A DNA stretch of 27,767 bases from IMG/VR virus record IMGVR_UViG_3300042458_001447, positions 1 through 27,767 of that record; one strand, 5' to 3'. The DNA comes from a virus. The position numbers were made by a program, and so were the translations under genes. Shown here one piece after another: positions 1,960-18,807 of this stretch; the first letter of the stretch is position 1, and each line of letters opens with the position of its first letter. Below the pieces are notes generated by a model, which searched no databases, was not told the origin of the DNA, and saw only the letters and a program-made list of their open reading frames with translations.

Positions 1960-3870
1960 ATGAGAGCAGTCATTATAGGTACTGATTTTATGAAAGATAC
2001 TGATGGTACTTTCAAGGCATTAGAAACGAATACAAATATTCAATTAGATACCCAATGGTCTCTTAATTTTGATTCAGCATCATTTGAGAATTTTGTACTT
2101 TCAAATAATTTTACCGAAGTTGTATTGATTTCAAATCAAAATAATACATCGCTCGGTTCAGATTATACAATTAATGATGCGATTATTGAGCTTGAAACTA
2201 TAACTAACAATTATGTAAATAACTCAATACCTTTTACACCATTTAATTTTAGTTTTAATCAATATTTACAATCATTTTTATCTGGAAGTGATGTACAACT
2301 AACAACCATATCCACAGATGCTACATCTACTACTATTCCGTTTGTTGAAGATGCGGATGATAAGTTAATCATACGATTATCATTTGATACTACTGCATTA
2401 ATTGATGACAACTATGCAAGAGATAATTGGGGATTTTTGAAATTAATGTATGATGCTGATAATAATTCTATTCCAAAGTGTTATATTGATGATGCGGAAT
2501 TTGGCATAGATAATATTGGTGAAACATTAAGAGATAATGGAAATCATCCTAATTATTGTATTAAAAAGAGAGTAACTCCTGCTGATAATGCAATATATCC
2601 AATATTACTTAAAATTTCTAATGTAGAAGAATTGAATGCTTTAAAATCTAATTTGGAAGTTGATGAATATATTCAAGAATATATTTTTAATACCGATGAT
2701 TTATTTGAGGATAGATTAAACTCATATAGAAGTATAGATGTGTTATATGGTTCAAATTTAGATATAATACATTTACAAGTTGTAGAAAAAACAAAAAATT
2801 TACCAGTTCTAGCTTCTGCAGATTTTGATGATAATAACCAAGTTCAACCTTGGGATAGAATGAGATATCTTCAAAAATTTCATACAACTTCTAATCAAGT
2901 TGCAATAAAATTAAGTGCTACCGAAAACACTAAAGTAATACTGCCAGATGATACTATTGAATTAGCACCTAATTTACAAATAGGTGATGAAGTTAAATCT
3001 ATTTTATTTCCAACATTACCAGATGAAAGTAGTATGAATAATTTAGATAGTTGGTCTTCTTCATTTGATTCAGTAATCACAGATTACCAAATATCATCAT
3101 CATTTTTAGAAAACAAATCAACTACTAATTATTATGGAGTTTTAGTAACATTTGAAACTGATTTGAATTCTACTTTTAGTGATGTTAATCATGCTCAAAT
3201 AATGATAAAAGATGGGGATAATGTAAAATTTGAAACATATTCGAACTTAACAAATGGTAATGAGATTATTATTTTTGATACAACTACGAACGAGTTAACT
3301 ACTACTACTATAACCAATGTAAATTTTAGATTTGATAAATTTACTGCATATACCTTGGATTTTGAAGAATTTGATTTATTCCTTACGTTAGAAGAAACTG
3401 AAAATCAAAGTAGATATGGATTGGTTACTCATAATTTTGGATATGATTGCTACTTCTCTTCAGTTACATATTTTAGTGGTCCTGGATATTGTGTTAGTTC
3501 CTGGGCATGTTCCTCGGGTGCATACTTGAACCAATGTGGATGGAATCACGATATTTCCATCCGATGTTCAAGATTTCCACCCACTGGCTTTAATTACTCA
3601 CCTGGAAGTGCAACACTGAATTTAAACACTCTTTGTAATGACCAAAAATCAGATATTCGATATAAAGAAAATCTAACTTTAATTGGTATATCTAATAGTG
3701 GATTAAATATCTACACCTTTAATTACAAAAACGAAGAGGGATTATATCAAGGAGTTATTGCTCAAGAATTGATTGGAACCAAATTTGAAGATGCGTTATC
3801 TAAAAATAGTGAAGGATTATACGAAGTAGATTATAGTAAAATAGATGTGGAATTTAAAAAAATAAATTAA
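1960..3870 (+). CDS. Large fibre-like virion protein with C-terminal S74 intramolecular chaperone
   Basis: A 636-residue protein ending in a clear peptidase S74 / intramolecular chaperone domain: SDIRYKEN starts at residue 564, followed by a GLNIYTFNY segment, QGVIAQE and the VDYSKI end. Ser564 and Lys569 fit the Ser/Lys self-cleavage pair of this family, which trimerises fibre proteins and then cuts itself off. Just before it lies a Cys-rich stretch with cysteines at 497, 511, 517, 526, 536 and 559, unusual for a fibre. The N-terminal 300 residues do not look fibrous; they carry DGTFKALETNTN (15-26) and other segments that resemble pieces of ATP-grasp enzymes. The middle (310-490) is Ser/Thr/Asn-rich and probably beta. 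Likely a receptor-binding or appendage protein; the N-terminal reading is tentative. Confidence 0.8.
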   Translation: MRAVIIGTDFMKDTDGTFKALETNTNIQLDTQWSLNFDSASFENFVLSNNFTEVVLISNQNNTSLGSDYTINDAIIELETITNNYVNNSIPFTPFNFSFNQYLQSFLSGSDVQLTTISTDATSTTIPFVEDADDKLIIRLSFDTTALIDDNYARDNWGFLKLMYDADNNSIPKCYIDDAEFGIDNIGETLRDNGNHPNYCIKKRVTPADNAIYPILLKISNVEELNALKSNLEVDEYIQEYIFNTDDLFEDRLNSYRSIDVLYGSNLDIIHLQVVEKTKNLPVLASADFDDNNQVQPWDRMRYLQKFHTTSNQVAIKLSATENTKVILPDDTIELAPNLQIGDEVKSILFPTLPDESSMNNLDSWSSSFDSVITDYQISSSFLENKSTTNYYGVLVTFETDLNSTFSDVNHAQIMIKDGDNVKFETYSNLTNGNEIIIFDTTTNELTTTTITNVNFRFDKFTAYTLDFEEFDLFLTLEETENQSRYGLVTHNFGYDCYFSSVTYFSGPGYCVSSWACSSGAYLNQCGWNHDISIRCSRFPPTGFNYSPGSATLNLNTLCNDQKSDIRYKENLTLIGISNSGLNIYTFNYKNEEGLYQGVIAQELIGTKFEDALSKNSEGLYEVDYSKIDVEFKKIN

Positions 3871-4039: not shown

Positions 4040-4321
4040 ATGTTTGATAAAGTAAAAGAAATTGCAGAATCTTGGATTATAGCCAACAATCCCTCTGAAT
4101 CTCAATTAAAATTAGCGGACGAACGATTAAAAATTTGTAAAGGGTGTGATAAGATGGTAAAGGGTACTCTAGTAAAGTTTAAATGTTCGGAGTGTGGTTG
4201 TCCTATTGATAAGAAAATATTCTCACCAACGTATGATGCATGTCCTTTACATAAATGGTTAGATGTAGAAAGTTCTGATGTGTTTGGTAACACACGAAAA
4301 CAACAAAATAGTTTAATATAA
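4040..4321 (+). CDS. Small zinc-ribbon protein, 93 aa
   Basis: The cysteine pattern is a double zinc-knuckle: CKGC at residues 33-36 and CSEC at 49-52, then Cys54, with CPLHKW at 68-73 supplying two more possible ligands. The first 30 residues form an amphipathic helix (SESQLKLADERLKICKGC) that leads directly into the first knuckle. This architecture is frequent among small marine phage proteins of unknown function. The spacing would allow one or two zinc ions. It lies between the fibre genes and the accessory enzyme block. Binding to nucleic acid or protein is possible; no enzyme activity is suggested by the sequence. Confidence 0.75.
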   Translation: MFDKVKEIAESWIIANNPSESQLKLADERLKICKGCDKMVKGTLVKFKCSECGCPIDKKIFSPTYDACPLHKWLDVESSDVFGNTRKQQNSLI

Positions 4322-4353: not shown

Positions 4354-5634
4354 ATGAAATTTTATATTCATCATTTTTATTCAATTTCTCTTTTTTATAA
4401 GTTGTTTCATAAAACAACTAATAGAAGATATGAACTAACTAATAACATCGGTTCCATTTTTTGTTCTTACGAGGGGAATGATTTGGAATTGGTATTTGAC
4501 CCTACACTAAACGATAATACCGATGGATATCATATATTGGATTTTTTAACTTGTTTAGAACAGATAAACCACGATGATAAGTTAAAAAGTATCGATTGTA
4601 TAAATCGTAAAGAAGGTGATACATCACATCGTGGTAAATGGGGAGCTGAATTTGGTATAAATGATATTCCAATAATGAAATGGATAGCCAATACTTTGGA
4701 AAATAAAAGTAATTGGTTTATTTTTTTATTACGAACTGAAAAATCAATAATAAAATATGATGGTATTGATTATCCAAATGTGATGGATTTGGAGGTTCAA
4801 ATAGATAGATTAAAAAATCATGTTATAATATCAGACAATGTGATTTTTAATGACTTTGTAAAAACCAAATACCCAAATCACTTTTTTTGTTTAACAAATA
4901 CAATACATCAATGGAATGAACTTTTATCAATTCGTTGGTATTATGAATTTAAAAATATATTTAGTAAATTAAACCAGCCGTATGATTTATGTTTCTCTAT
5001 GAGATATCATAAGAGAAATAGAACTAATATCATAAATGGATTGGCAAAACTAAATGATGATAGAATATATCTTTCGAGAGTAGATAATTGTATTAATAAA
5101 GAATTTGCTATGTATTCTAAACAATTAGAAAAAAATATCAACTATAATATTAATAAAGGAGATGATTTTGATGATATATCTTGGATTGAAAATATAGAAC
5201 ATTATTTAGATTATTTGATGAGAATCTTACCAATGTCCAAGATGCATATACTATCCGAAACTTGGGATTGGAAAGAAGGTGATTTTACATCAAACTATTT
5301 ATCTGAAAAAACTTATGGATTCTTACTATCCAATATTCCTTTTATATCTACACATCAGTATCCATTGGAAGTGATAACCGAAATATTGAATACACCTCCA
5401 CATCCATTTTATAATGAAATAAAAAACGTAAATGGTAATCCTGGCAAATTTGTTTTATTCGTGGAAGAATTTATGAAAAATTATGAAACTAATAGACAAC
5501 TATGTATTAACTGGGGTAATGGTACACACAATAAATTAATAAGTTTTATGGATAATGAAAATTCATTTTTAAAAAATATAATTAATAATAATTTTATTAT
5601 AGAAAAAAATACTATATACAAAAACATTATATAA
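4354..5634 (+). CDS. Glycosyltransferase-like protein (paralogue of the 8648 gene)
   Basis: A 426-residue soluble protein, not recognised by name. Near the C-terminus it has LSEKTYGFLLSNIPFIST (residues 316-333), and in the middle a segment DLCFSMRYHKRNRTNIINGL. The 8648 gene carries the same two blocks in the same order (CFNGIPRENR and SEKTYKPIYLCQPFIVFG). The S/T-E-K-T/I-y-x(n)-P-F/I-I block is typical of the donor-binding half of some glycosyltransferases, including the GT10 fucosyltransferase-like group, where the Glu and Lys contact the nucleotide sugar. No DxD motif stands out. It heads the accessory enzyme block and is followed two bases later by an oxygenase-like gene. A sugar transfer role is inference from this motif and the neighbours. 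Confidence 0.5.
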   Translation: MKFYIHHFYSISLFYKLFHKTTNRRYELTNNIGSIFCSYEGNDLELVFDPTLNDNTDGYHILDFLTCLEQINHDDKLKSIDCINRKEGDTSHRGKWGAEFGINDIPIMKWIANTLENKSNWFIFLLRTEKSIIKYDGIDYPNVMDLEVQIDRLKNHVIISDNVIFNDFVKTKYPNHFFCLTNTIHQWNELLSIRWYYEFKNIFSKLNQPYDLCFSMRYHKRNRTNIINGLAKLNDDRIYLSRVDNCINKEFAMYSKQLEKNINYNINKGDDFDDISWIENIEHYLDYLMRILPMSKMHILSETWDWKEGDFTSNYLSEKTYGFLLSNIPFISTHQYPLEVITEILNTPPHPFYNEIKNVNGNPGKFVLFVEEFMKNYETNRQLCINWGNGTHNKLISFMDNENSFLKNIINNNFIIEKNTIYKNII

Positions 5635-5635
5635 T

Positions 5636-6286
5636 ATGGAAAAAATATGGTTTGATGATACAACATTTATATGGAAAACAAAACTTAATTTATTTGATAA
5701 TAAAAATGAAATAATTAAACAAGCAAAACGAGTTGAAAAATCCCGTTACGGTGCTATCCATGACGGATTTGGATATTTAATAACAGAAGATGATAAAGTT
5801 CTGGATATAGCAAGTTGTGGATACCAACCTCTATTGGATAAAATAATTAAATTAAGTACCAATTATTGTAAGGAAATATATATTGAAAATAATAAGTATA
5901 ATAAATTAAATACTGAATCTTGGATTAACATAGTTAGAGCAAAAAATCCAGTACAAAGTTCATATAAAGATAGAGATGTAATTGGAGAGTTGAGTTATCA
6001 TGCACATACTGAAATTAATAAAAGACTTAAATCATTTTTTCCACATTATACCTTTGTTTATTATATTCAAATGCCGGATGTAATGAATGGAGATGATGGT
6101 GTTTTATACTTTAGAGGTAAAAATAAAAAAGAATATTGGATAAGACCAGAAGAGGATGATTTAATTATAATGGAGGGTGATATGCCCCATGCTCCAAATA
6201 ATGCACCCAATTCAACATTAGATAGAATAGTATTAGCAGGTAATGTTGGTTTTGAATTTCTTAAAAACTTTAAAAGTATTATATAA
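5636..6286 (+). CDS. Putative 2OG-Fe(II) oxygenase-like protein, 216 aa
   Basis: The C-terminal half has the layout of a small double-stranded beta-helix oxygenase: YHAHTEINKR (residues 121-130) could give His and an acidic ligand (His124 and Glu126, or His122 and His124), GVLYFRG (155-161) is a core strand, LIIMEGDMPHAP (176-187) gives the distal His185, and DRIVLAGNVGF (196-206) supplies Arg197 for 2-oxoglutarate. This matches the general phage Fe2OG plan in which the distal His lies on a strand starting with a Gly-Asp turn. The first 100 residues are unassigned. The classical HxD is replaced by HxE or HxH, so activity is uncertain. The stop codon shares one base with the start of the next gene, a clearer oxygenase, which suggests the two are translated together. 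Confidence 0.5.
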   Translation: MEKIWFDDTTFIWKTKLNLFDNKNEIIKQAKRVEKSRYGAIHDGFGYLITEDDKVLDIASCGYQPLLDKIIKLSTNYCKEIYIENNKYNKLNTESWINIVRAKNPVQSSYKDRDVIGELSYHAHTEINKRLKSFFPHYTFVYYIQMPDVMNGDDGVLYFRGKNKKEYWIRPEEDDLIIMEGDMPHAPNNAPNSTLDRIVLAGNVGFEFLKNFKSII

Positions 6287-6855
6287 TGTTTATTAAATAT
6301 ATTGAGAATTTCTTAACAAAAGAAGAATGTGAACAAATAATTTTATTAGGAGAGTCAATTGGTCTTATCCAAATGAAATCATCACTTATTGTAGATGGTA
6401 AATTAATTGAAGAGAATATGAGTTATAATGGTAATAAACGAATGGGTTGTTATTTTCACAATGACTTATTAGAAAATGAACTATTAAAAAATATTACAAA
6501 TAAGATTATTGAATTATCCAATAACCTAAATCCATTTAAGGGTGTATATTATACTAATGTACCAAGTTATTCATTCAATAGATATGGTGAGGGTGATTTA
6601 CTGGAGTGGCATTCAGATAAGCATGAAATCTTAAATGGTGCAACAATAACATTTATTATCCAACTTAACGATGATTATGAGGGTGGGGATGTTAAATATA
6701 TTACACATGAGGATAGTCACACTACCCCTAAAAAAGCAGGAAGTGTACTGATATTTGATTCAAATATAGTTCATTCGGTTGATGCAGTGATAAAAGGAAC
6801 TAGATATTCATTGAATGTCTGGCCAAGTAAAACAATTAAAAAATCTATATTATAA
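6286..6855 (+). CDS. 2OG-Fe(II) oxygenase, prolyl-4-hydroxylase-like
   Basis: A 189-residue protein with all key residues of the 2-oxoglutarate/Fe(II) dioxygenase family: WHSDKHE gives His109 and Asp111, IVHSVDAV gives His163, and GTRYSLNVW gives Arg173 for 2-oxoglutarate. The strand YEGGDVKYI (131-139) and the segment AGSVLIFDSN (151-160) fit the prolyl-4-hydroxylase/PKHD group. The N-terminal IENFLTKEECEQII (6-19) is also typical of that group. These enzymes hydroxylate proteins, small molecules or nucleic acid bases; T4-like marine phages often carry several of unknown substrate. It overlaps both neighbours by a single base (TAATG junctions), indicating translational coupling with another oxygenase-like protein before and a sulfotransferase-like protein after. 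Confidence 0.85.
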   Translation: MFIKYIENFLTKEECEQIILLGESIGLIQMKSSLIVDGKLIEENMSYNGNKRMGCYFHNDLLENELLKNITNKIIELSNNLNPFKGVYYTNVPSYSFNRYGEGDLLEWHSDKHEILNGATITFIIQLNDDYEGGDVKYITHEDSHTTPKKAGSVLIFDSNIVHSVDAVIKGTRYSLNVWPSKTIKKSIL

Positions 6856-7592
6856 TGTTAGTAGAAAATAAATTTATTTATGTATCATTACCAAGATGTG
6901 CATCAACTGCATTTATGGCATCTTGTGTAAAACAAAATTTAGATATTAAACATTATATTAATGATTATAATATGGATAATCAATTAATCAACAGTAGATA
7001 TACTAATATAAGTCAAATAGATTTTAAATATTTTGAAAAAGATTTTGCTCATAGTCATGAGCCAATACCTCTTTTAAAACAAAAATTTGGATATGATTAT
7101 AATGTAATATCCGTTAGAAGAAATAAATATGAAAGATTTATATCCCTATGGAAGCATGTATTAAACAAATTTAATGGATATGGTGATTTAGATACAGTTA
7201 ACAAATTATCAAACCTCACCATTCATGAATTATTATTCTATAACACAAATAATTTACAATCAGTAGAGAGTGTAAAAGAAGTTATTGAAATTTTTATAAA
7301 AAAATATAAGTTAAATATTGATGAAGTTGGCAGAGAAATGTTAAGAATTTTGATATTTCCCTATTCAAGATGGCATAATCATGACCCGAATATAATATGG
7401 TTTGATTTTAATGAATTGTATAAATTAGAAGAGTGGGTATCAAATAAATTAAATATAGATTTTAAATTAATAAATTTAAATAGTAGTAATCACTTTAATA
7501 CAAAATTAGAACTTAATGATGAATTTAAAGAAAAATATGATTCTATTTATTTACCGTATGATGAAGTTAAAAGTGTAAAAACTCTATTCTGA
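6855..7592 (+). CDS. Sulfotransferase-like protein
   Basis: A 245-residue protein with the two PAPS-binding blocks of the sulfotransferase superfamily. The 5'-phosphosulfate loop is YVSLPRCASTAF (residues 9-20), and the 3'-phosphate block is VISVRRNKYERFISLW (84-99), where the Arg and Ser contact the 3' phosphate. His66/His68 in the FAHSHEP segment sit where the catalytic base could lie. Length matches small carbohydrate sulfotransferases. The family moves sulfate from PAPS to hydroxyls on sugars, proteins or small molecules; in phages its target is mostly unknown. No PAPS synthesis gene is visible, so the donor would come from the host. It is translationally coupled to the oxygenase before it and the GNAT-like gene after it. 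Confidence 0.75.
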   Translation: MLVENKFIYVSLPRCASTAFMASCVKQNLDIKHYINDYNMDNQLINSRYTNISQIDFKYFEKDFAHSHEPIPLLKQKFGYDYNVISVRRNKYERFISLWKHVLNKFNGYGDLDTVNKLSNLTIHELLFYNTNNLQSVESVKEVIEIFIKKYKLNIDEVGREMLRILIFPYSRWHNHDPNIIWFDFNELYKLEEWVSNKLNIDFKLINLNSSNHFNTKLELNDEFKEKYDSIYLPYDEVKSVKTLF

Positions 7593-8029
7593 TGAAACCA
7601 TATATCTTACATAAAGATAATTTTATAAAGGAAGAATTGACTATACATTATGTAGTTGATATATCTAATTATATTTCAGATATCCAATTACTTATTAATT
7701 ATTTTAATTCCGAATACAAGTGGGATGGTATGTTTGATATAGATGAGTGTGAGAATAGAATAGAATTGGGACACTATTTATTTTTACTAAAATTAAATCA
7801 TACCCCGATTGGGTATGTTTGGTTTAAAGAATTAAGTAATGATGTATGTTTTGGTTACAATCTTTATGTTACTAAACAAATATCAAGACCTAAATATGCT
7901 CCAACTTGGTTTTATAGAGAAGTTAGTGGCCGTATGTTACAAAAATATAATTCAATTGAAGTTGAGATAGAAGATTGGAATAGTGTTGTATTTGAGTTAG
8001 TTGAAAATATTGGGTATAAAGAATACTAA
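7592..8029 (+). CDS. GNAT-like acetyltransferase (tentative)
   Basis: A 145-residue protein with a weak GNAT-fold outline: an early helix region, a strand pair LFLLKLNHTPIGYVWFKEL (residues 63-81) like the central beta3-beta4 hairpin of GNAT enzymes, a strand NLYVTKQ (90-96) where the beta-strand before the acetyl-CoA loop should be, and a C-terminal segment WNSVVFELVENIGYKEY resembling the usual N-x(n)-lyekxGF end. The R/Q-x-x-G-x-G/A pyrophosphate loop is not obvious, so cofactor binding is doubtful. The start shares a base with the sulfotransferase stop (TGATG). If a true GNAT it would acetylate an amine on a sugar or peptide, in keeping with the modification theme of the block. Confidence 0.45.
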   Translation: MKPYILHKDNFIKEELTIHYVVDISNYISDIQLLINYFNSEYKWDGMFDIDECENRIELGHYLFLLKLNHTPIGYVWFKELSNDVCFGYNLYVTKQISRPKYAPTWFYREVSGRMLQKYNSIEVEIEDWNSVVFELVENIGYKEY

Positions 8030-8030
8030 A

Positions 8031-8651
8031 ATGAAATCCACATTATGGACTTTTGGGGATAGTAATACCGCAGGTTGGGGATGTAATCCATCGGATGAAT
8101 ATTATCAAAAATATTATAAATTAGGAAATAAAATATGGCCGGAGTGGTTAAGTGAACTTTTTGATATTAATTTAAAAAACTTTGGAAAAAGTGGAAGTTC
8201 AAACGATACAATCATAGATACTATAATACGAAAATGGGATGAAATAAATAAAGGGGATTATGTATTTATTGGAATGACTCATCCACATAGATTTGATGTT
8301 CCAATTAATAATCAATTTGAATCAATCGTTCATAATTTTGCAGAGGATAAAAAAGAAAGTAATTTAACTAAAACTGAATTTGAAACTATTATAAATTTTC
8401 AGTATTATTTTGCAGACCATATTTTATATAAAAATAGACACATACATCGATTCGAATGGATTAGAAAACTCTTATTAAAAAAGGGGTGTAACATGGCTAT
8501 ACTATGGAATGTCCAAACTGATTTAAATGGTCTTCAAACAATATATGATGAAACTAATGGAGAGATTGTAGATAAGCATTTATCATTTTCTTCACATAAA
8601 TTACTTGCTGATATATTTTATAAAAAATATATTACTAAAGATATTATATGA
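8031..8651 (+). CDS. SGNH/GDSL hydrolase-like protein
   Basis: Block I is FGDSNTAGWGC (residues 8-18) with the nucleophile Ser11, block II is GKSGSSND (52-59) giving the oxyanion Gly and Asn58, block III is around YVFIGMTHP (77-85), and block V is DKHLSFSSH (181-189) with Asp181 and His183. The family removes acyl groups from sugars and lipids, for example O-acetyl from polysaccharide. An upstream in-frame TTG start would add ten residues inside the previous gene; I prefer the ATG at 8031, one base after the previous stop, because it places the GDS motif at the usual distance from the N-terminus. No signal peptide, so it should act in the cytoplasm. A second member lies at 18040 and shares GDSxTxGxGC. 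Confidence 0.7.
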   Translation: MKSTLWTFGDSNTAGWGCNPSDEYYQKYYKLGNKIWPEWLSELFDINLKNFGKSGSSNDTIIDTIIRKWDEINKGDYVFIGMTHPHRFDVPINNQFESIVHNFAEDKKESNLTKTEFETIINFQYYFADHILYKNRHIHRFEWIRKLLLKKGCNMAILWNVQTDLNGLQTIYDETNGEIVDKHLSFSSHKLLADIFYKKYITKDII

Positions 8652-9799
8652 GTAATATAAAAAACATATTGATAAATGTTGGGTATGATGATATAAATTT
8701 TCCAAACTTATACAATTATAATATTGAACCCGAATGGAATATCCAAAGTAAAACAAATATAACAACTTTATTGGATAACACTCTTGGTAATTTTAAACAA
8801 AATACGATTGATAATTTTATAAAAACTGATGTAAATTTTATTTACCCAATAGTTTTATTTGATAATAAGTTATTTGACAATTATACCACAATTGATTTCG
8901 ATGAAAGGGTATTAAAATCAATTAAATTAAAAAAGTGTAAAATTGTTTTTGCTTATTTATTGGAAGGATATTTTAATATATCTCATATTAAGTGGATAGA
9001 TAATTTATGCCAAAAGTATCAATTTTCTAAAGAAGATGTTATTGTTATTACATCTAATTTATTTCAATTTTCAAATAATAAATTTACCATAATCAATTAT
9101 GATTATTTTGGTAATCATATAAACTTTTTATCAGTATCTAAATTGGATTCTATAAAAGTAAAATCAGTTGAAAACGATTACCAGAAATTTATAAATAATA
9201 ATTTTGTATTTCATTTTTTGTGCTTTAATGGAATTCCTAGAGAAAATCGATTACTGATGTTTAATGAATTGACTACTAATGAAAAGTTCAAAAATAAATC
9301 TATTACAACATTACGAGGAGTTGATAAAAATTACTATTACGATGTTCCAAGTTGGGATAATCAAAAAATAGGTGGAGGTGCTAGATTAAATATAGATGCT
9401 CATTTAAAAAGTTTTTTGAATATAGTTACCGAAACTCTATATGATAATGATTCGCTTTTTATATCTGAAAAAACATATAAACCGATTTATTTATGTCAGC
9501 CATTTATTGTATTTGGGAATCCATTTACTTTAAATAAATTACACCAGCTGGGTTATAAAACATTTGATAAATGGTGGGATGAAAGCTATGATTCTGAATT
9601 AGATTTGAAAAAAAGATTTGATAAAATTGTTAAAGTAATCGAACAGATATCAAACTTGGATATAAATCAACTTATGAAATTGAAAAATGAAATGAGAGAA
9701 GTATTAATTCATAATTATTTAAACTTTTTCAAAGCAGATGGAATGGAAGAATTGTTTAAAAAATTGAAATGCGATTTTAATAAAAAAACATTAATATAA
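8648..9799 (+). CDS. Glycosyltransferase-like protein (paralogue of the 4354 gene)
   Basis: A 383-residue protein with FLCFNGIPRENRLLMFNEL in the middle and, from residue 272, SEKTYKPIYLCQPFIVFG followed by LHQLGYKTFDKWWDESYD. This second block (an E-K-T-y/w-K-P motif, then PF, then a GFxTFxxWWDExYD tail) is a pattern I associate with a common marine phage protein family of unproven, probably glycosyltransferase, function. The motif resembles the donor-sugar site of GT10/GT-B enzymes. It overlaps the previous SGNH-like gene by four bases (ATGA) and ends the accessory block; a 74-base gap and a new promoter follow. Together with the 4354 protein it brackets the oxygenase, sulfotransferase and esterase-like genes. 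Confidence 0.55.
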   Translation: MSNIKNILINVGYDDINFPNLYNYNIEPEWNIQSKTNITTLLDNTLGNFKQNTIDNFIKTDVNFIYPIVLFDNKLFDNYTTIDFDERVLKSIKLKKCKIVFAYLLEGYFNISHIKWIDNLCQKYQFSKEDVIVITSNLFQFSNNKFTIINYDYFGNHINFLSVSKLDSIKVKSVENDYQKFINNNFVFHFLCFNGIPRENRLLMFNELTTNEKFKNKSITTLRGVDKNYYYDVPSWDNQKIGGGARLNIDAHLKSFLNIVTETLYDNDSLFISEKTYKPIYLCQPFIVFGNPFTLNKLHQLGYKTFDKWWDESYDSELDLKKRFDKIVKVIEQISNLDINQLMKLKNEMREVLIHNYLNFFKADGMEELFKKLKCDFNKKTLI

Positions 9800-10264: not shown

Positions 10265-10918
10265 ATGAAACAAAAAACAGAACAAGAATTAAAAACAAAT
10301 TACGAAAAGTTTCTTAAAATCCTAGAAAAGTACTTCACAGGAGAAAGATTAGAAAAACTCCTTTATATGTACTCTGAATCAGAATTAGGTGGTAACCTTA
10401 TGATATCACCAGCTTCAGGTAATTTAAATTTTCATAACGCGTATCCTGGTGGTTATATTGACCATATTTTTAATGTTTGTAAGAACGCAATTGCTATGAA
10501 AAATGTATTTGTATCACAGGGAGGTGTACCTGATTTTACAGATGAAGAATTAATATTTGTAGCACTACATCATGATTTAGGAAAGTTAGGAACTAAAGAA
10601 GAATTACATTACGTACCTAATGAATCAGATTGGCATGTAAAAAATAAAGGTGAAGTATATACTAGAAATAGTAATAACTCATATATGGCGATTACTGACA
10701 GAACTTTCTTCTTACTTAATAGCTATGGTATTCAGTATAATGAAAATGAATATTTTGGTATTAAACTTACAGATGGAATGTATGATGAAGATAATGTAAA
10801 ATATTATAAAACATTTGATTTATCCAAATATCTTAAATCAAACATTCAGTACATAATGCATTGGGCAGACCACATGAGTACTATTATTGAAAGACAAAAT
10901 TACATTAAATCTAAATAA
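10265..10918 (+). CDS. HD-domain phosphohydrolase
   Basis: A 217-residue HD-superfamily metal-dependent phosphohydrolase. GGYIDHIFNV places the first His at 67, LHHDLGKLG (101-109) holds the HD pair His103-Asp104, and HWADHMS (199-205) supplies His199 and the last Asp202. The long N-terminal helical region (1-60) and the insert after the HD pair (110-190) are similar in plan to the YhaM-like and phage HD proteins. The family removes phosphate or breaks phosphodiesters in nucleotides, (p)ppGpp, cyclic dinucleotides or RNA ends. Similar genes are frequent in marine T4-like phages; the substrate here is not known. It stands alone between two promoter-like regions, next to the Hsp20 gene. Confidence 0.85.
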   Translation: MKQKTEQELKTNYEKFLKILEKYFTGERLEKLLYMYSESELGGNLMISPASGNLNFHNAYPGGYIDHIFNVCKNAIAMKNVFVSQGGVPDFTDEELIFVALHHDLGKLGTKEELHYVPNESDWHVKNKGEVYTRNSNNSYMAITDRTFFLLNSYGIQYNENEYFGIKLTDGMYDEDNVKYYKTFDLSKYLKSNIQYIMHWADHMSTIIERQNYIKSK

Positions 10919-10922
10919 TACA

Positions 10923-10966
10923 GACACTTTGTCATATTTTATTTAAATAACACTGACAATTTGTCA
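10923..10966 (+). promoter_or_regulatory. Tandem GACA-N3-TGTC palindromes upstream of hsp20
   Basis: Two inverted repeats, GACACTTTGTC (10923-10933) and TGACAATTTGTCA (10954-10966), share the form GACA-N3-TGTC and repeat with a 32-base spacing, about three helical turns. The second is perfect over 13 bases. They end 22 bases before the hsp20 ATG. The housekeeping TTG-N20-TAnnTTTG arrangement is absent here. The layout suggests an operator or alternative-sigma promoter for heat-shock-type control. Confidence 0.5.
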
Positions 10967-10988
10967 TAATAATTTGATTGGTATAAAA

Positions 10989-11417
10989 ATGGAAACTATC
11001 AGTTTAAATTATTTCAAAAACTTAAATAAAAAAACTATGTACACTACAGATTTAACAAAACTACTAGATTTATTTGATTATCCAAAATGGAATACTACAT
11101 CATCAAACCACTCTTCATTTGTAGCGGATTATGATGTATCTCAATTGGAAGATGGTCAACAACAACTAACTTTGAATGTTTTAGGGCATGATGCTAAAAA
11201 CATTAAATTAGATGTTACGGATGATAAAATTAAAATTAAAGCAAAAAAAGAAGAAGGAAGCTCTCCATTGGTTAAGGAAATTGATGTTACCTTTACGGTA
11301 AGTAAAGATTATGATGGAACTAAAACTAAAGCTAAATTCTCTAATGGATTACTTATTTTAACAATTGATAAAAAAGAAGAAAGAAAGTCTAAATCAATTT
11401 CAATTACGGTTGATTAA
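10989..11417 (+). CDS. Small heat-shock protein, Hsp20/alpha-crystallin family
   Basis: A 142-residue small heat-shock protein. After a variable N-terminal region (1-42), FVADYDVSQLEDGQQQLTLN (44-63) starts the alpha-crystallin domain, GHDAKNIKLDVTDDKIKIKA follows the usual strand order, and NGLLILTIDKK (119-129) matches the conserved G-x-L strand of the family. A longer frame with a TTG start at 10974 exists; I chose the ATG at 10989 because the extension has no family counterpart. Hsp20 proteins hold unfolding proteins for refolding; many marine myoviruses carry one, probably to aid capsid or tail assembly. It has its own upstream palindromes and a downstream terminator, so it is probably a single-gene unit. 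Confidence 0.9.
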   Translation: METISLNYFKNLNKKTMYTTDLTKLLDLFDYPKWNTTSSNHSSFVADYDVSQLEDGQQQLTLNVLGHDAKNIKLDVTDDKIKIKAKKEEGSSPLVKEIDVTFTVSKDYDGTKTKAKFSNGLLILTIDKKEERKSKSISITVD

Positions 11418-11440
11418 TTCAAATATTTTTTCTATATTTA
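11410..11440 (+). promoter_or_regulatory. Promoter (TTG, 20-base spacer, TATATTTA) inside the hsp20 end
   Basis: TTG at 11410-11412, in the last codons of hsp20, then 20 bases, then TATATTTA at 11433-11440. The spacer ends AAATATTTTTTC, as in the promoters at 9824 and 12716. The predicted start near 11446-11448 falls in the left arm of the hairpin at 11443-11465. Confidence 0.6.
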
Positions 11441-11442
11441 TG

Positions 11443-11472
11443 GGTGGTAAGAATAACTTATCACCTTTTTTT
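11443..11472 (+). terminator. Rho-independent terminator after hsp20
   Basis: A 9-base-pair stem, GGTGGTAAG (11443-11451) with CTTATCACC (11457-11465), one G-U pair, a five-base AATAA loop, then seven T (11466-11472). It lies 25 bases after the hsp20 stop. The only strong intrinsic terminator I can see in the window. Confidence 0.85.
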
Positions 11473-11492
11473 ATTTAAAAATACTTATTAGT

Positions 11493-11669
11493 ATGATATA
11501 CGACGAAAAAATAAAAAACTTATTAGAGGCCATTGATGGTAAATTGAGAATTTTACAAAATGGAATTTCAGGTGCGCAGAACTTATCACCTTCTGAAGCA
11601 CATACTACATTAGCAGACGCCCGAGCATTAATAGAACGTGTAGGAGAGTTAGCTAGAATCAATCGATAA
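11493..11669 (+). CDS. Small helical hypothetical protein, 58 aa
   Basis: An open frame of 58 residues (MIYDEKIKNLLEAIDGKLRI at the N-terminus, ending VGELARINR) that starts after the hsp20 terminator and ends one base before the membrane protein gene. It is predicted to be two amphipathic helices with a short central loop (SGAQNLSPSEA). I do not recognise it. Its position in a unit with its own promoter and directly ahead of the membrane coiled-coil protein suggests that the two act together, perhaps as a small binding partner. Confidence 0.7.
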   Translation: MIYDEKIKNLLEAIDGKLRILQNGISGAQNLSPSEAHTTLADARALIERVGELARINR

Positions 11670-11670
11670 T

Positions 11671-12711
11671 ATGAATTGGCTAAAAGTATTAGTAGGATTA
11701 TCTGCTATTATTGTAGCCGGATGTGCGGCTTATTTCTCTGTAACTGGTTTAGGTGTTCTCTTTGCGGGAGCATCTACATCAGTTATAGTAATGGCTTCCT
11801 CTTTGGAGTTAGCTAAATTGGTTGTTGCCACATATTTAAAACAAAAGTGGAATGAAATTGGTGGATTTAACAAATGGTATCTTACTATTTCAGTAGGAGT
11901 TCTTATGTTAATCACTTCCGCGGGTATTTTTGGATACCTTTCTAATGCATTTCAAGCACAGTCACTCCAATTACAACAAGTAGATAGAGAAATTGAGGTT
12001 CATCAAACAAAAATTGACCAAAACACAGAACAAATTACTCAACTTTCTACTCAAATTACCGAATTTAACTCCAATCAAGGTAAAATTATTGATGGAGGTA
12101 CAGTAAATTCACGTTTATTACGTTCACTTGATGCTAGAGATAAGGAAATTAGTAAAATTAACGATAAAATTTCTAATTTACAAGCAGAAAACGCAACTGA
12201 AACAGAAAAAATCAATCAAATTAAGATTGCTAATCTAGATTTAGAGAAGGAAGTAGGTGGATTTCGATTTGTAGCTGAAGCATTTGGTATCGAATTGAAA
12301 AATGTTGTAAAATTCTTCATATTTTTGATTGTAATAGTGTTCGACCCTCTCGCAGTTGCTCTAATTATTGCATTTAATGGCTTAATTTCTAACAAAAAAC
12401 TCCAACAAAAAGAAAAATTGGTTGAAATGATAGAAAATGATGAAAAATTGGGGTTATATGAAATTTATGGTGATAAAACAGAGGATGTAGCTGACGAAAC
12501 TGCTTCTAACATTGAAAAAATTCAAGAAGAGGAAGAAGAAACTTCAAATTTAAAATGGGAAGAATACATGCATCCAGAATTTCCATGGAATAATCGTAAA
12601 TTGTGGATAAATAATCCAAAAGCTGTAAATTATTGGTTAAACACCAAAAAAGGAAGTGTTAGGGATTTGGCTAAATTCCGTAACGAAGAAGAAAACATCA
12701 AAACTTACTAA
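11671..12711 (+). CDS. Membrane protein with coiled coil
   Basis: A 346-residue integral membrane protein. Hydrophobic segments are at about 4-23, 27-55, 70-90 and 212-238, the last being KFFIFLIVIVFDPLAVALII. Between the third and fourth lies a 110-residue Gln/Glu/Ile-rich coiled coil (about 95-197). The C-terminal tail is acidic (EDVADETASNIEKIQEEEEE) and ends with a basic, Trp-rich section with PWNNRKLWINNPKAVNYWLN. Proteins with this plan, including the FDPLAVAL segment, recur in marine T4-like phages but have no known function. The large soluble loop with coiled coil could span the periplasm or reach into the cytoplasm, as in a membrane sensor or an assembly anchor. The C-terminal part may bind another virion or host protein. 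Confidence 0.75.
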   Translation: MNWLKVLVGLSAIIVAGCAAYFSVTGLGVLFAGASTSVIVMASSLELAKLVVATYLKQKWNEIGGFNKWYLTISVGVLMLITSAGIFGYLSNAFQAQSLQLQQVDREIEVHQTKIDQNTEQITQLSTQITEFNSNQGKIIDGGTVNSRLLRSLDARDKEISKINDKISNLQAENATETEKINQIKIANLDLEKEVGGFRFVAEAFGIELKNVVKFFIFLIVIVFDPLAVALIIAFNGLISNKKLQQKEKLVEMIENDEKLGLYEIYGDKTEDVADETASNIEKIQEEEEETSNLKWEEYMHPEFPWNNRKLWINNPKAVNYWLNTKKGSVRDLAKFRNEEENIKTY

Positions 12712-12715
12712 CCGC

Positions 12716-12746
12716 TTGTAAATACGAAATATTTTTCTTATATTTA
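12716..12746 (+). promoter_or_regulatory. Promoter (CTTG, 20-base spacer, TATATTTA) before uvdE
   Basis: TTG at 12716-12718 (part of CTTG), exactly 20 bases, then TATATTTA at 12739-12746. The spacer contains GAAATATTTTTCT. The -7 box ends only four bases before the ATG at 12751, so transcription should begin at or near the start codon, giving a leaderless or nearly leaderless message. Confidence 0.6.
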
Positions 12747-12750
12747 AAGT

Positions 12751-13650
12751 ATGAATATAGGATATGCGTGTATTAATATGTCGATGGGTAACAAGGTTAC
12801 CACAAATCGTTCAATGGTGAAGAAAACATTCAATGCCAAAGGCTTGGATTACGTTTCGGAGTTGGCGTTAGCAAATGCCAAAGATATTATTAAGATATTG
12901 GAATGGAATCGTATCCATAATATCAATTTTTTTCGTTTATCATCCGCTATTATTCCGTGGGGTGATGCATTGGATTTAACTCAACTCAAAGATTACACAG
13001 AGATTAAATCGGAGCTAAAGAAAGCAGGTGATTACGCTAAATTCCATAATATCCGTATTAATTCTCATCCTGGTCCATTTAATGTGTTACCTTCCCCTAA
13101 CGAAGAAGTTATTCAGAAAACTTTTGCTGATTTAGAATTACATGGTAAGATATTTGATATGATGGGGTTATCTAAAACCCATTATAACAATATTAATATC
13201 CATTGTAATGGGGTCTACGGAGATAAACAAGCGGCAATGGATAGATTGATTACAAACTTCAAAAGACTCTCTCCAAGCGTACAAAAACGATTGACATTGG
13301 AGAATGATGATAAGGCTTCTATGTATTCAGTAAAAGATTTGATGTATATCTACGAACGAACAGGTATTCCTATTGTATTTGACTATCATCACCATCAATT
13401 TTGCACAGGTGGGTTAACCGAAGAAGAAGCTCTTAAACTTGCTGCCACAACTTGGCCAAAAAGTATTACACAAGAAGTTCACTATTCAGAATCTAAAGCA
13501 TTACATGAAAACAATCCAAAAGAAAAACCACAAGCCCATTCGGTGTATATTAATGCCCTCCCCAATACATACGAGTTGGATGTGGACATTATGGTTGAAG
13601 CAAAAGGAAAAGAATTAGCAATATTACCATTTATAAAAACAATGTTATGA
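12751..13650 (+). CDS. uvdE: UV damage endonuclease UvdE
   Basis: A 299-residue UvdE-family enzyme with the full TIM-barrel endonuclease plan. It begins IGYACIN, the conserved first strand, so the start at 12751 is required. Metal-ligand positions are visible: SHPGPFNVLPSPNEE (105-119) with His106, NIHCNGVYGDK (149-159) with His151, LTLENDD (181-187) with Glu184, IVFDYHHHQF (208-217) with Asp211 and nearby His, and QEVHYSES (241-248) with His244. UvdE nicks DNA 5' of UV photoproducts and some other lesions. In sunlit water this would protect or repair the phage genome. Its 3' end overlaps the nucleotidyltransferase gene by four bases. It is less AT-rich than the accessory block: a hand count of two single 60-base lines gave about 35 percent GC here (13021) against 25 percent there (7681). 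Confidence 0.93.
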   Translation: MNIGYACINMSMGNKVTTNRSMVKKTFNAKGLDYVSELALANAKDIIKILEWNRIHNINFFRLSSAIIPWGDALDLTQLKDYTEIKSELKKAGDYAKFHNIRINSHPGPFNVLPSPNEEVIQKTFADLELHGKIFDMMGLSKTHYNNINIHCNGVYGDKQAAMDRLITNFKRLSPSVQKRLTLENDDKASMYSVKDLMYIYERTGIPIVFDYHHHQFCTGGLTEEEALKLAATTWPKSITQEVHYSESKALHENNPKEKPQAHSVYINALPNTYELDVDIMVEAKGKELAILPFIKTML

Positions 13651-14024
13651 AAAAGTACGCACTATACATCGGAAGATGGCAGAATTGGCACAAAGGACAT
13701 GAATGGTTAATCAATCAACAACTTGAAAAGGGAAAGAATGTTTGGGTGGCAATTAGAGATGTGGATGTAGATGAAAACAACCCAAAAACTGCCCAACAGG
13801 TAATGATTGAATTAACAAAAGAACCATTCTTTCAAGAAAATTGGAATCAAATTCATATATCTATTATTCCTGATATTGAATCAGTAAACTATGGTAGAGG
13901 TGTAGGATATGATGTAATATATCATGAACCACCAACCGATGTAGCAGCAATTAGTGGAACTGCTATTAGAACAGGCCGTATGACACCAAATGGAACTATT
14001 ACCTATGATGAAACCAAAGGATAA
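13647..14024 (+). CDS. Small nucleotidyltransferase (HxGH family)
   Basis: A 125-residue cytidylyltransferase/adenylyltransferase-fold protein. LYIGRWQNWHKGH (6-18) carries the nucleotide-binding HKGH at 15-18, and AISGTAIR (101-108) is the family's second motif, ISGTxIR. At 125 residues it is smaller than NMN adenylyltransferase (about 170-190) or CCT domains, lacking the usual C-terminal helices. Possible reactions are NMN adenylylation, CDP-alcohol or pantetheine-phosphate adenylyl transfer; the sequence does not decide. It overlaps uvdE by four bases (ATGA) and shares one base with the next gene, a third oxygenase, in a tight operon. Similar short phage proteins are often annotated as NadR- or cytitidyltransferase-like; whether it makes NAD or an activated sugar alcohol is open. 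Confidence 0.75.
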   Translation: MKKYALYIGRWQNWHKGHEWLINQQLEKGKNVWVAIRDVDVDENNPKTAQQVMIELTKEPFFQENWNQIHISIIPDIESVNYGRGVGYDVIYHEPPTDVAAISGTAIRTGRMTPNGTITYDETKG

Positions 14025-14545
14025 TGATACTAATAGAAGATAATATAAATTTATTTAGTTTAAAAGAAAAAAAAATTTTAAAAAAAAGATGTGTATCGTT
14101 TAAAGTTGATGATACTCCTACTGAATTAAGTGGAAAATCTAGAAACTATTATGTAAGACAATATATCTCAAATGTTGATGAAGATATGAAATCAATTATT
14201 ATAAAGATAAATAATTACTTAAATGAAAAACTAAAAACTAAAATTACGTTTCAAATGGCTTGGATTAATAAAATAACAAACCAAACGAATAGAAACGATG
14301 AATTTCACCAAGACGCATCGGATATAACATTTCTAATGTATCTAAATGATGAATTTACAGGAGGAGAATATGAATATATTGAACCGGAAAATAAAAAGAA
14401 AGAAAAATTAAAACCAAAAAAATATTTAAGTATTATAACCGATAAAACCATTAAACATAGAGTAAATCCTGTTTTAGAAGGTGAACGATATAGTATGGTA
14501 TTTTTTTATGATTTTAATAAAAAAATAAATAAAACATTAATATGA
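14024..14545 (+). CDS. 2OG-Fe(II) oxygenase, 173 aa
   Basis: The third oxygenase of the window. FHQDASD (94-100) gives His95 and Asp97, IKHRVNPV (143-150) gives His145, and GERYSMVFFYDF (153-164) gives Arg155 for 2-oxoglutarate. The strand FTGGEYEYI (111-119) is typical of the prolyl-4-hydroxylase-like fold. The spacing of these residues agrees with the 6286 gene, which has HxD, a GGDxxYI strand, a distal His and the same GTRYSxxVW-type Arg. It is somewhat more basic and lacks part of the N-terminal lid. Substrate unknown; base, protein and small-molecule hydroxylation are all possible. It overlaps the nucleotidyltransferase by one base and the DUF2061 gene by four. Confidence 0.8.
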   Translation: MILIEDNINLFSLKEKKILKKRCVSFKVDDTPTELSGKSRNYYVRQYISNVDEDMKSIIIKINNYLNEKLKTKITFQMAWINKITNQTNRNDEFHQDASDITFLMYLNDEFTGGEYEYIEPENKKKEKLKPKKYLSIITDKTIKHRVNPVLEGERYSMVFFYDFNKKINKTLI

Positions 14546-14754: not shown

Positions 14755-14758
14755 AAAT

Positions 14759-15406: not shown

Positions 15407-15407
15407 T

Positions 15408-15650: not shown

Positions 15651-15651
15651 A

Positions 15652-16341: not shown

Positions 16342-16345
16342 TATT

Positions 16346-18043
16346 ATGATTCAATTAGGAATATCCGCATTTTACCACGATTCAGCAGCTGCATTGCTTA
16401 TAGATGGTAAGGTAGTATTTGCAATAGAAGAAGAAAAATTATCTGGTATAAAACATGATAATTCGTTTCCATTAAAAGCTATAGAAGCATGTTTATCACA
16501 CGCTCAAATTACAATAGATGAAGTTGATATCCTTTGTTGGTATGAAGTACCAAATATCAAATATGACAGAGTTAGTAAAACATTAGGAAAAAGATGGATT
16601 AAATATTTCAAAACTTGGAATAAATTTAAAAAAGAATTTAAAGCAACAGAGGGAAATTTAAAACAATATATAAAAGATACTATTGGGTATGATAGTGTAA
16701 TTACATTTACAAAACATCATTTATCTCATTTAGCTTTATCTTTTTACACATCACCGTTTGATGAAGCTATTGGAATTTCAATTGATGGAGTCGGTGAATG
16801 GGATACTATCTCAATTGCGGAATGTAATTCAAATGGTATTAATGAAATTAAAACAGTAAAATTCCCAAATTCATTGGGGTTAGTATATTCAACTATAACT
16901 TCATATTTAGGATTTAAACCAAATAGTGGTGAGTATAAAGTAATGGGTTTGGCCCCATACGGAGATTCTTCAAAATATAACGAATTATTTGATACATTCG
17001 TATCGTTGGATACAGTTAATTTAATTAATATAAATCAGAAGTATTTCACATGGGAATATTCTAATACAGATATGTTTACATTGGATTTAATTAAACTGAT
17101 AGGATTTGAACCACGCGAACCTGAATCTAAATTAGAACAACATCACATGGATTTAGCAGCTGCTTTACAAAGGTGGTATGAGCGGTGTTTATATTACATC
17201 ATTAATAACTCATGTAGTTATTCTGATAATTCAAATTTAGTATTAGGAGGAGGATGCGCGTATAATGGAACTGCTAATGGTAAAATAAAAAAACATTGTG
17301 GTATTAAGAATGTATGGATTCCCTACTCACCATCTGATGCGGGTTCTGCAATTGGAGCCTGTTTATATGTATGGCATGATGTAATTGGAAATCCTAAAGT
17401 AAAAGGTGGTGATAATCAATCTCCATATTTAGGACCCGAATTTAGTAAAGAATATGTATTAAATATTATAGATGGGATAGGAGATATATCTTTCAAATAC
17501 TATAAAAATACTGATACATTATTAAGTAAAACTGCCAATTTAATTAAAGAAGGAAATATAATTGGTTGGTTTCAAGGTAGAACCGAATTTGGTGCAAGAG
17601 CATTAGGTAATCGTTCTATATTAGCTAATCCACATTTATCAGATGTAAGAGATAGAATTAATAAGGTTGTCAAAAAGAGAGAAATGTTTAGACCATTTGC
17701 TCCATCAGTAACACATGAAGATTATCAAAATTATTTTAAATCGGAAGAAGATGTTCCGTATATGAATCAAGTAGTTCAGGTTATTTCAGAAACATCAATT
17801 CCATCAGTAACGCATGTTGATAATAGTGCTAGAATACAGACTGTAACAAATGAACAAAATCCCTTATATTATAGTTTATTAAAAGAATTTGAAAAAATAA
17901 CAGGAACACCAATTTTACTAAATACATCTTTCAATTTGAGAGGTCAAACTATGGTTAATGACCCTGCTACCGCAGTTAAAACATTTAATAATTGTGATAT
18001 GGATTATTTAGTTATTGGAAATTATATAGTAAGTAAAATATGA
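16346..18043 (+). CDS. NodU/TobZ-type carbamoyltransferase
   Basis: A complete 565-residue carbamoyltransferase. The N-terminal Kae1-like part has LGISAFYHDSAAALLIDGKV (4-23), KHHLSHLALSFYTSPF (123-138) with metal-binding His, ISIDGVGEWD and SGEYKVMGLAPYG (194-206). The C-terminal YrdC-like half has GRTEFGARALGNRSILANPH near 410-430 and LNTSFN near 530. The family transfers carbamoyl from carbamoyl phosphate via carbamoyl-AMP to a hydroxyl on a sugar or antibiotic (NodU, TobZ); I recall that phage members have been linked to carbamoylation of 5-hydroxymethylcytosine. No hydroxymethylase is seen here, so a sugar or base target is equally open. It overlaps the SGNH-like gene by four bases, so the two are coupled. 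Confidence 0.92.
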   Translation: MIQLGISAFYHDSAAALLIDGKVVFAIEEEKLSGIKHDNSFPLKAIEACLSHAQITIDEVDILCWYEVPNIKYDRVSKTLGKRWIKYFKTWNKFKKEFKATEGNLKQYIKDTIGYDSVITFTKHHLSHLALSFYTSPFDEAIGISIDGVGEWDTISIAECNSNGINEIKTVKFPNSLGLVYSTITSYLGFKPNSGEYKVMGLAPYGDSSKYNELFDTFVSLDTVNLININQKYFTWEYSNTDMFTLDLIKLIGFEPREPESKLEQHHMDLAAALQRWYERCLYYIINNSCSYSDNSNLVLGGGCAYNGTANGKIKKHCGIKNVWIPYSPSDAGSAIGACLYVWHDVIGNPKVKGGDNQSPYLGPEFSKEYVLNIIDGIGDISFKYYKNTDTLLSKTANLIKEGNIIGWFQGRTEFGARALGNRSILANPHLSDVRDRINKVVKKREMFRPFAPSVTHEDYQNYFKSEEDVPYMNQVVQVISETSIPSVTHVDNSARIQTVTNEQNPLYYSLLKEFEKITGTPILLNTSFNLRGQTMVNDPATAVKTFNNCDMDYLVIGNYIVSKI

Positions 18044-18807
18044 TATTACATGCATACGGTGATTCTTGGACCGAAGGTGAAGGTTGTAATTTAGAAATAG
18101 AGAAAAGTTTAAAAAACCAAGACCTTATAGTTTATAGAAATCAGCATTCTTGGGTAAAAAATTTAGCAGAAAAATTAGAATTAAAATGGATTAATAATGG
18201 TAAAAGTGGTAATCCAAATGCTGTTATTTTTAATTCAATAATTGATGATGTAGTTAATGGTAGAATAAAAGAGGGAGATTTGGTAGTAATTCTTTGGAGT
18301 TCATCTTTAAGAGATTATGCCGCATTTTTACCACGTCAACAATGGGTTAGTTGGTCTGTAAAGCACTTACTCAATTTACCTGAAAAATTTACACACTCAT
18401 ACAAAAGTAATGATTCTGTTTATGATAAATTTCTTTCGGAATATAAGTCTTTTTTTCTTAATCAAATGTTTAGTCAAAATTACTATAATATAGTAAATCA
18501 GAATTATATTATTTTTTTACAAAAACTTTTTGAATGTTATGGTGTAAACTATTTTATGGGAGATGCGTTTGATAAAATGATTGTAGATTTAGATATTAAA
18601 GATGATATATCTCATTTAATTAATAAAAATAATTATTATTATTTTTCTAAAAAAACTTTAAAAGATTATTTAAAGCAAACCAATACAGATTGTTTTGAAT
18701 CAAATGAAATGATAGAAAAAAACCCCGCACAACATCCTAATGAAATTGGGTATAATCTAATAAGTGAAGAAATCTATAATTATATAGTAAATAAGAATAT
18801 ATTATGA
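18040..18807 (+). CDS. SGNH/GDSL hydrolase-like protein (second copy)
   Basis: A 255-residue relative of the 8031 protein. Block I is YGDSWTEGEGC (6-16) with Ser9; block II GKSGNPN (54-60) gives the oxyanion Gly and an Asn; block III is around VVILWSSS (82-89); block V is QHPNEIGYN (231-239) with His232. The Asp that normally precedes the His by two or three residues is absent, replaced by Pro/Ala/Gln, so the catalytic dyad or triad may be incomplete. The middle (95-210) is an insert of helices not found in the shorter copy. It overlaps the carbamoyltransferase and the next gene by four bases each. Deacylation of a sugar or of the carbamoylated product is a possible role, or a binding-only one. 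Confidence 0.65.
   Translation: MILHAYGDSWTEGEGCNLEIEKSLKNQDLIVYRNQHSWVKNLAEKLELKWINNGKSGNPNAVIFNSIIDDVVNGRIKEGDLVVILWSSSLRDYAAFLPRQQWVSWSVKHLLNLPEKFTHSYKSNDSVYDKFLSEYKSFFLNQMFSQNYYNIVNQNYIIFLQKLFECYGVNYFMGDAFDKMIVDLDIKDDISHLINKNNYYYFSKKTLKDYLKQTNTDCFESNEMIEKNPAQHPNEIGYNLISEEIYNYIVNKNIL

Follow-up and report, generated by a model that had tools for sequence, protein, structure and literature searches.

The stretch of DNA analysed here (the window) is a 27.8-kb virus fragment, IMG/VR record IMGVR_UViG_3300042458_001447, positions 1 to 27,767. Between positions 4354 and 9799 it carries seven genes in a single run, the junctions between successive open reading frames (ORFs) being, in order, +1, -1, -1, -1, +1 and -4 bases, which confirms the coordinates and tight spacing given in an earlier note on this sequence. 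All on the plus strand, they encode GT1, a GT-B-like glycosyltransferase (4354..5634); OxA (5636..6286) and OxB (6286..6855), two 2-oxoglutarate (2OG)-Fe(II) oxygenases; ST, a sulfotransferase (6855..7592); a GNAT-like protein (7592..8029); an SGNH-like hydrolase (8031..8651); and GT2, a glycosyltransferase-like protein with an SEKTYKP motif (8648..9799), after which comes a 74-base gap. The left edge of this run had been set too short. A gene for a Zn-ribbon protein (4040..4321; CxxC..CxxC, DUF6171 8e-4) and, before it, the gene for a 636-residue protein named here HP (1960..3870), both on the same strand, belong to one unit with the seven. The subject of this analysis is that unit, a C-terminal tag shared by unrelated enzymes within it, and HP, which has the features of a precursor.

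The enzyme types that had been proposed hold to differing degrees. The oxygenase call is firm for OxB, judged by its Pfam match (3.8e-13), and good for OxA, where a weak Pfam match (6.5e-3) is joined by one to the phage 2OG family phrog_81 (6e-10). Structure prediction and profile searches support GT1 and ST: the GT1 model (pLDDT 81) resembles GT-B glycosyltransferases (WaaG 9e-5, prob. 1.00), albeit with a TM of only ~0.4, and ST, for which Pfam gives no match, has a profile matching heparan sulfate 2-O-sulfotransferase in the PDB (5.8e-5). Residues P13, S17, R89, R94, F95 and S97 of ST are invariant in 26 sequences, and with these Pro/Ser and Arg/Ser motif residues it has both the 5'- and the 3'-phosphate-binding motifs of a sulfotransferase dependent on 3'-phosphoadenosine-5'-phosphosulfate. 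The SGNH call is weak (Pfam Lipase_GDSL_2, 1e-3), Pfam gives no family support for GNAT, and the identity of GT2 as a glycosyltransferase is unproven. GT1 and GT2 had been taken as paralogues that bracket the set. Their kinship is likewise unproven, since only a C-terminal S-E-K-T-Y motif is common to the two and a profile comparison gives a weak E = 0.011; nor is the bracketing general, as the cassettes of relatives run past either gene or are without GT2.

Relatives were gathered by searching IMG/VR with GT1 and GT2, which gave more than 45 loci; over more than 100 related IMG/VR loci in all, the genes are part of a shuffling cassette beside the conserved HP gene (L-numbers below are locus labels). 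The loci are redundant metagenomic fragments; counts are of distinct sequences, which are nevertheless phylogenetically related, and ORF calling was mechanical throughout. The genes are conserved as a group: GT1, GNAT, sulfotransferase and 2OG genes co-occur in more than 25 related contigs, so that their grouping is not chance. Two deep lineages are found, and loci of the window's type (lineage 1) have the order HP - Zn-ribbon - [variable] - GT1 - [variable] - GNAT - [variable, often GT2] - HD-like - Hsp20 - TM. The variable slots draw on a common pool of OxA/B/C-type 2OG oxygenases, sulfotransferases, SGNH, radical SAM and methyltransferase-like proteins, to which Trp halogenase (1.5e-93), Asp/Asn beta-hydroxylase (2e-15) and a SET-domain protein (3e-12) are added, and close relatives differ by gain, loss and reordering of cassette genes. 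At 39 well-flanked HP loci, ST is present in all 39, and the Zn-ribbon gene and a 2OG gene in 38 each. The cassettes span at least six unrelated folds: 2OG-Fe(II) oxygenase, sulfotransferase, GT-B, Trp halogenase, radical SAM and Zn-ribbon. In L031, an 82-residue GT1 fragment (7192-7440, 87% identical) adjoins a full GT1, and we read it as duplication debris in a shuffling cassette.

When each family was aligned, unrelated proteins were found to have similar C-terminal ends. The consensus of this tag is ~K-x-x-K-[TS]-[LI]-[IL]-COOH, with a core of roughly K-[T/S]-L-I; among 540 members of ten families there is K at -7 in 57%, K at -4 in 64%, T/S at -3 in 69%, L/I at -2 in 94% and I/L at -1 in 93%. 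In the window, the Zn-ribbon protein ends ...QNSLI (family tagged 65/75), OxA ...FKSII (60/61), OxB ...KKSIL (119/145), ST ...VKTLF (80/90) and GT2 ...KKTLI, with tag-like ends in GT1 (...YKNII; 30/34) and the SGNH-like protein (...TKDII; 22/68). The GNAT-like protein occurs regularly in lineage-1 cassettes, and its family has almost no tagged members (1/18). By family the tag is bimodal, being mostly near-always or near-never present; radical SAM (13/14) and Trp halogenase (34/41) are also tagged, and flanking families score 0/40, 0/39, 0/24, 0/22 and 0/21. The pattern was defined after inspection of the sequences; controls on a whole contig and on loci without HP were run later. In its loose form the tag occurs in 143 of 196 distinct cassette proteins, against 28 of 363 other ORFs in the same loci, and its frequency falls steeply with distance from HP, from 73% within 2 kb (368/504) through 36% at 2-5 kb to 9% of same-strand ORFs beyond 5 kb (42/488), with 3% of opposite-strand ORFs near HP (4/133). 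A 287-kb contig, read whole in pieces, has 12 of 14 genes of its HP island tagged and 11 of ~338 elsewhere. OxB homologues in loci without HP are tagged in 1 of 64 cases and the cultured-phage halogenases examined lack the tag, so the tag is a system-specific addition. One tagged OxB orthologue (60-66%; L059, 8001-8570) comes from a contig of 31 kb that yielded no HP, and is either part of a fragment or a solitary tagged enzyme.

It could be argued that this similarity is a signal in the DNA, such as an A-rich start region of the next gene or a recombination linker, given that the genes overlap by 1-4 bases in a genome of ~29% GC. This was tested and is rejected. Synonymous codons vary as they do inside genes, tag Ser being encoded by both AGY and TCN and the codons for Leu, Ile and Thr broadly matching internal usage; the tag is retained where the downstream gap exceeds 30 nt (75/92) or where there is no same-strand neighbour (8/9); and it is missing from equally AT-rich loci. 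The tag is conserved as a peptide, not as DNA. An origin by AT-rich chance was also considered, and is excluded by the AT-rich control loci, the whole-contig control and the untagged homologues.

Of the proteins that occur in the cassettes of both lineages, HP alone lacks the tag. It is predicted to consist of an N-terminal domain (residues 1-~310), a Hint domain (~312-492), a Cys-rich segment (493-563) and an S74 domain (564-636). The Hint fold is a structural prediction: the top 50 Foldseek matches to the HP model are all inteins, Hedgehog or bacterial intein-like (BIL) domains, among them the TvoVMA intein (1.8e-6), Hedgehog (2.3e-6) and a BIL domain (TMt 0.77). The predicted domain ends in His491-Asn492 (codons at 3430..3435), and alignment of 42 HPs shows both residues to be invariant. 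HP is probably self-cutting, with the predicted C-terminal cleavage after Asn492. At the expected start of the Hint domain no Cys is visible in the alignment by eye, nor was the Cys or Ser of a splicing nucleophile found there, and for this reason we infer the C-terminal cleavage only. An impression by eye that the N-terminus resembles ATP-grasp found no Pfam or PDB sequence support, and no such identity is claimed.

Directly after the invariant His-Asn comes a segment (3436..3648, FGYDCYFSSVTYF...NTLCNDQK) of 71 residues with six Cys. Comparison across HPs shows it to be hypervariable, with pairwise identities mostly of 0.2-0.5 where those of the leader are 0.6-0.9, and also far below those of the S74 domain; it is rich in Cys, Tyr and Trp. 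The number of Cys is 6, 8, 10 or 12 and is even in 81 of 81 distinct HPs, as it is in three further HP sequences; in leader plus Hint of the same 81 the parity is mixed, with 47 even and 34 odd counts. The Cys residues of the segment are probably paired in disulfides. In lineage 1, ~67-110 residues follow the His-Asn, usually starting [YF]x[YF]DC, and lead to the S74/ICA-type domain (in the window 3649..3867, plus strand, starting S-D-I-R-Y-K; Pfam Peptidase_S74 1.3e-4). The Ser/Lys+5 pair is kept, S-D-x-x-x-K being present in 20 of 21 lineage-1 HPs, at the same spacing as S911/K916 of endoNF (PMC8326128) and the dyads of endosialidase and MYRF (PMC8326128, PMC3742443). In lineage 2 there is no S74 domain, and the His-Asn is followed by 25-33 residues of the form xCWCPWxYCGxxCxSxYCPxC...K[ILV]. 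In most lineage-2 HPs (e.g. L167, L233) a Gly/Pro-rich linker leads to a terminal K-[I/L/V], an ending faintly reminiscent of the enzyme tag.

The enzyme repertoire provides clues as to the substrate. The halogenase, Asp/Asn beta-hydroxylase, SET, radical SAM and methyltransferase proteins of the relatives suit amino-acid side chains. The earlier note had proposed chiefly a decorated glycan, coat or other modification of the host surface, and the two glycosyltransferase-like genes, the SGNH esterase-like gene and the sulfotransferase would fit this, as would the large separate sugar-type clusters of some relatives (L024, L012). We consider it very improbable here. Judged by gene content, glycosyltransferases do not form a constant core, as GT1 is found at 10 of 12 lineage-1 but 6 of 27 lineage-2 loci (absent near 2/12 and 21/27 HPs) while ST and 2OG stay constant; halogenase, SET and Asp/Asn hydroxylase are ill-suited to a glycan; the main families of the separate clusters are untagged; and the cassette surrounds a precursor-like protein with a Hint-flanked, Cys-rich segment. 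Modification of a phage protein, which the same note listed as one option, is in line with the precursor-like HP and with side-chain chemistry. The large separate clusters of L012 (7427-12377) and L011 (12257-20807) contain a carbamoyltransferase, several SEKTYKP proteins of GT2 type and further repeated families, all without the tag, and could be genuine glycan clusters.

On balance we think it rather probable that these genes make up one variant of a cassette for the maturation of a phage peptide or protein, with HP as its precursor. The N-terminal and Hint domains of HP would together serve as a leader, large and conserved, and what follows the Hint His-Asn would be the hypervariable segment to be modified. 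Tailoring enzymes of unrelated folds would hydroxylate, sulfate, glycosylate, halogenate, methylate or otherwise alter it, and Asn cyclisation in the Hint domain would cut it from the leader, with the S74 domain cutting its other end in the window's lineage. The shared tag may recruit the enzymes to the precursor, and swapping tagged enzymes in and out would yield new cassettes. A precursor with tag-recruited enzymes is the simplest model that joins the tag, Hint, S74, Cys parity, hypervariability, linkage and enzyme types.

The simplest reader of the tag would be the HP leader, by elimination, because HP is the sole untagged protein that both lineages' cassettes share. The same fact, together with the steep fall in tag frequency away from HP, argues against a different account, in which the tag is real but gives another address (a phage-made compartment, a protease adaptor or virion packaging), HP is a mere neighbour and the enzymes act elsewhere. 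This account, which we regard as unlikely, draws on the link between tag and HP being a prediction from sequence, and on a few tagged genes that lie away from HP. In the window these are OxC (14024..14545, plus strand; Pfam 2.4e-9, ending ...NKTLI), a third 2OG-Fe(II) oxygenase, and a second SGNH-like protein (18040..18807, plus strand; tag-like end ...NKNIL), both outside the main cassette. The latter follows a NodU/TobZ-type carbamoyltransferase gene (16346-18043; phrog_1601, 9e-128), also outside the cassette.

The product of such a cassette could be a secreted or intracellular bioactive peptide, or a knob borne on the virion. The strongest competing proposal, to which we give a real but minority chance, is that HP is a tail-fibre or tail-tip protein whose Cys-rich knob is modified in place as a hypervariable receptor-binding surface; the Hint domain would be structural, or would cut only after assembly. 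S74 domains are typical of tail spikes, the window has baseplate (wedge) genes 10-15 kb downstream, a tail-fibre distal-subunit gene follows immediately after the cassette of L209, halogenase/2OG sets adjoin tail genes in cultured cyanophages, and hypervariability itself would suit a receptor-binding surface. However, lineage 2 has no S74 domain, its segment being a 25-33-residue tail right after the invariant His-Asn; the conserved cleavage residues on either side would release the segment; and the cassette of L233 sits between a helicase gene and Hsp20, outside any structural module. The S74 domain and the tail-fibre neighbour in L209 speak for the virion; release is favoured by the paired cleavage residues and by the lineage that lacks S74.

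Several points weigh against the maturation cassette that we favour. Binding of the tag to HP and action of the enzymes on it are predictions from the genes. The S74 domain of lineage 1 fits a virion fibre, so that the segment could remain attached to the particle. The tag is missing from the GNAT-like protein and present in only part of the SGNH family, and in GT1 its T/S is often replaced by K or N. The HP model has a mean pLDDT of 56, with good confidence only in the middle of the protein and mostly higher values in the Hint region, and the N-terminal domain has no Pfam match and low AlphaFold confidence. Finally, one association that would support the model, the presence of halogenase at 20 of 27 loci with Trp-rich cores against none of the 12 lineage-1 loci counted, is confounded by lineage, and two halogenase-bearing lineage-1 cassettes have a single core Trp.

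The nearest published viral case is that of the halogenase/2OG/carbamoyltransferase clusters predicted in jumbo cyanophages (PMC7824862). These and the VirX1 locus of cyanophage Syn10 resemble the present cassettes in having a halogenase and many 2OG oxygenases in overlapping phage genes; neither tag nor HP is described for the former. The tag was absent at three cyanophage/pelagiphage halogenase loci that we read, and there was no HP homologue in the phage collection: a tblastn search of 50,697 phage records left GT1, GT2, ST, Zn-ribbon, GNAT, OxA and HP unmatched, save for the S74 domain of one Pseudomonas phage. In Syn10 (L251), the source phage of VirX1, overlapping genes around two halogenase genes (10482-20661) include several 2OG/JmjC oxygenases and are untagged. 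The run comes after proteins resembling tail-fibre genes, and a virion-protein substrate for the Syn10 halogenases is suggested.

The biosynthesis of ribosomally synthesised and post-translationally modified peptides (RiPPs) is similar in its conserved leader, hypervariable Cys/Trp/Tyr-rich core, clustered tailoring enzymes and intervening cleavage residues, and identity comparison indeed finds in HP a ribosomal precursor with conserved leader and variable core. In RiPP systems, however, RiPP recognition element (RRE) domains of the enzymes read the leader, whereas here the enzymes themselves bear the putative shared recognition element as a C-terminal tag, and the leader is of ~490 residues, ends in a Hint domain and is phage-encoded. 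There was no RiPP precursor or RRE family among the Pfam and PHROG matches of HP and the scanned enzymes. As no known RiPP class is matched and the modification is a prediction from the genes, we do not file the system as a RiPP. Hint/pretoxin-Hint polymorphic toxins and BIL domains likewise place a Hint domain, with terminal HN, directly before a variable C-terminal payload, but here the payload is short, Cys-rich and accompanied by tailoring enzymes, without toxin domain, and no Cys nucleophile is seen at the Hint start. The S74/ICA chaperones of tailspikes (endosialidase) and MYRF share the S74 domain with Ser/Lys+5 dyad behind a variable segment; in HP this holds for lineage 1 only, and upstream lie Hint and a Cys-rich segment rather than a beta-helix tailspike. 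Sublancin, the glycocin of prophage SPbeta, is also a phage-borne, disulfide-rich, glycosylated peptide, but has another precursor, one glycosyltransferase and a temperate phage, and is not known to have a tag or a Hint domain.

As to the window and its host, a search for RNA families gave none in the window. Shine-Dalgarno-like sites are present at only 3 of 32 start regions, with A-rich sequence upstream as in Bacteroidota phages, and our guess from this scarcity would be Bacteroidota hosts. A host search of GTDB gave a single 3.7-kb contig in a Pelagibacterales metagenome-assembled genome, which is probably viral and does not settle the host. In a check for a phage DNA-hypermodification cluster, with a hydroxymethylated-base pathway and a base glycosyltransferase, PF00303 is found in 8 of 9 large contigs; it does not separate thymidylate synthase from dCMP hydroxymethylase.

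The novelty claimed for the enzyme combination is upheld, and in the open-access literature subset neither the shared C-terminal tag nor a phage Hint precursor is described. To a fuller proposal we would give a little short of an even chance. In it, a self-cleaving precursor of lytic phages would give rise to whole families of peptides that are hypervariable, rich in disulfides and multiply modified, by means of a modular enzyme set to which a common C-terminal docking tag of 4-7 residues, read by the precursor, confers membership. As far as could be found, such a plug-in system of combinatorial chemistry has no earlier description for viruses or cells. One short C-terminal address on at least six unrelated folds would, if true, be a novel route to the assembly of a modification pathway, and would give an obvious rule for the entry of an enzyme into it. 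The tag makes the proposed production of a modified peptide testable, and the released-peptide and virion readings are both open to test by ordinary expression work and mass spectrometry. A segment of a phage protein becomes a candidate class of substrate for those phage halogenases, sulfotransferases and 2OG oxygenases whose purpose is unclear. If the product stays on the virion, it would be a chemically diversified receptor-binding tip; if it is released, uncultured phages would be an untapped source of modified disulfide-rich peptides.

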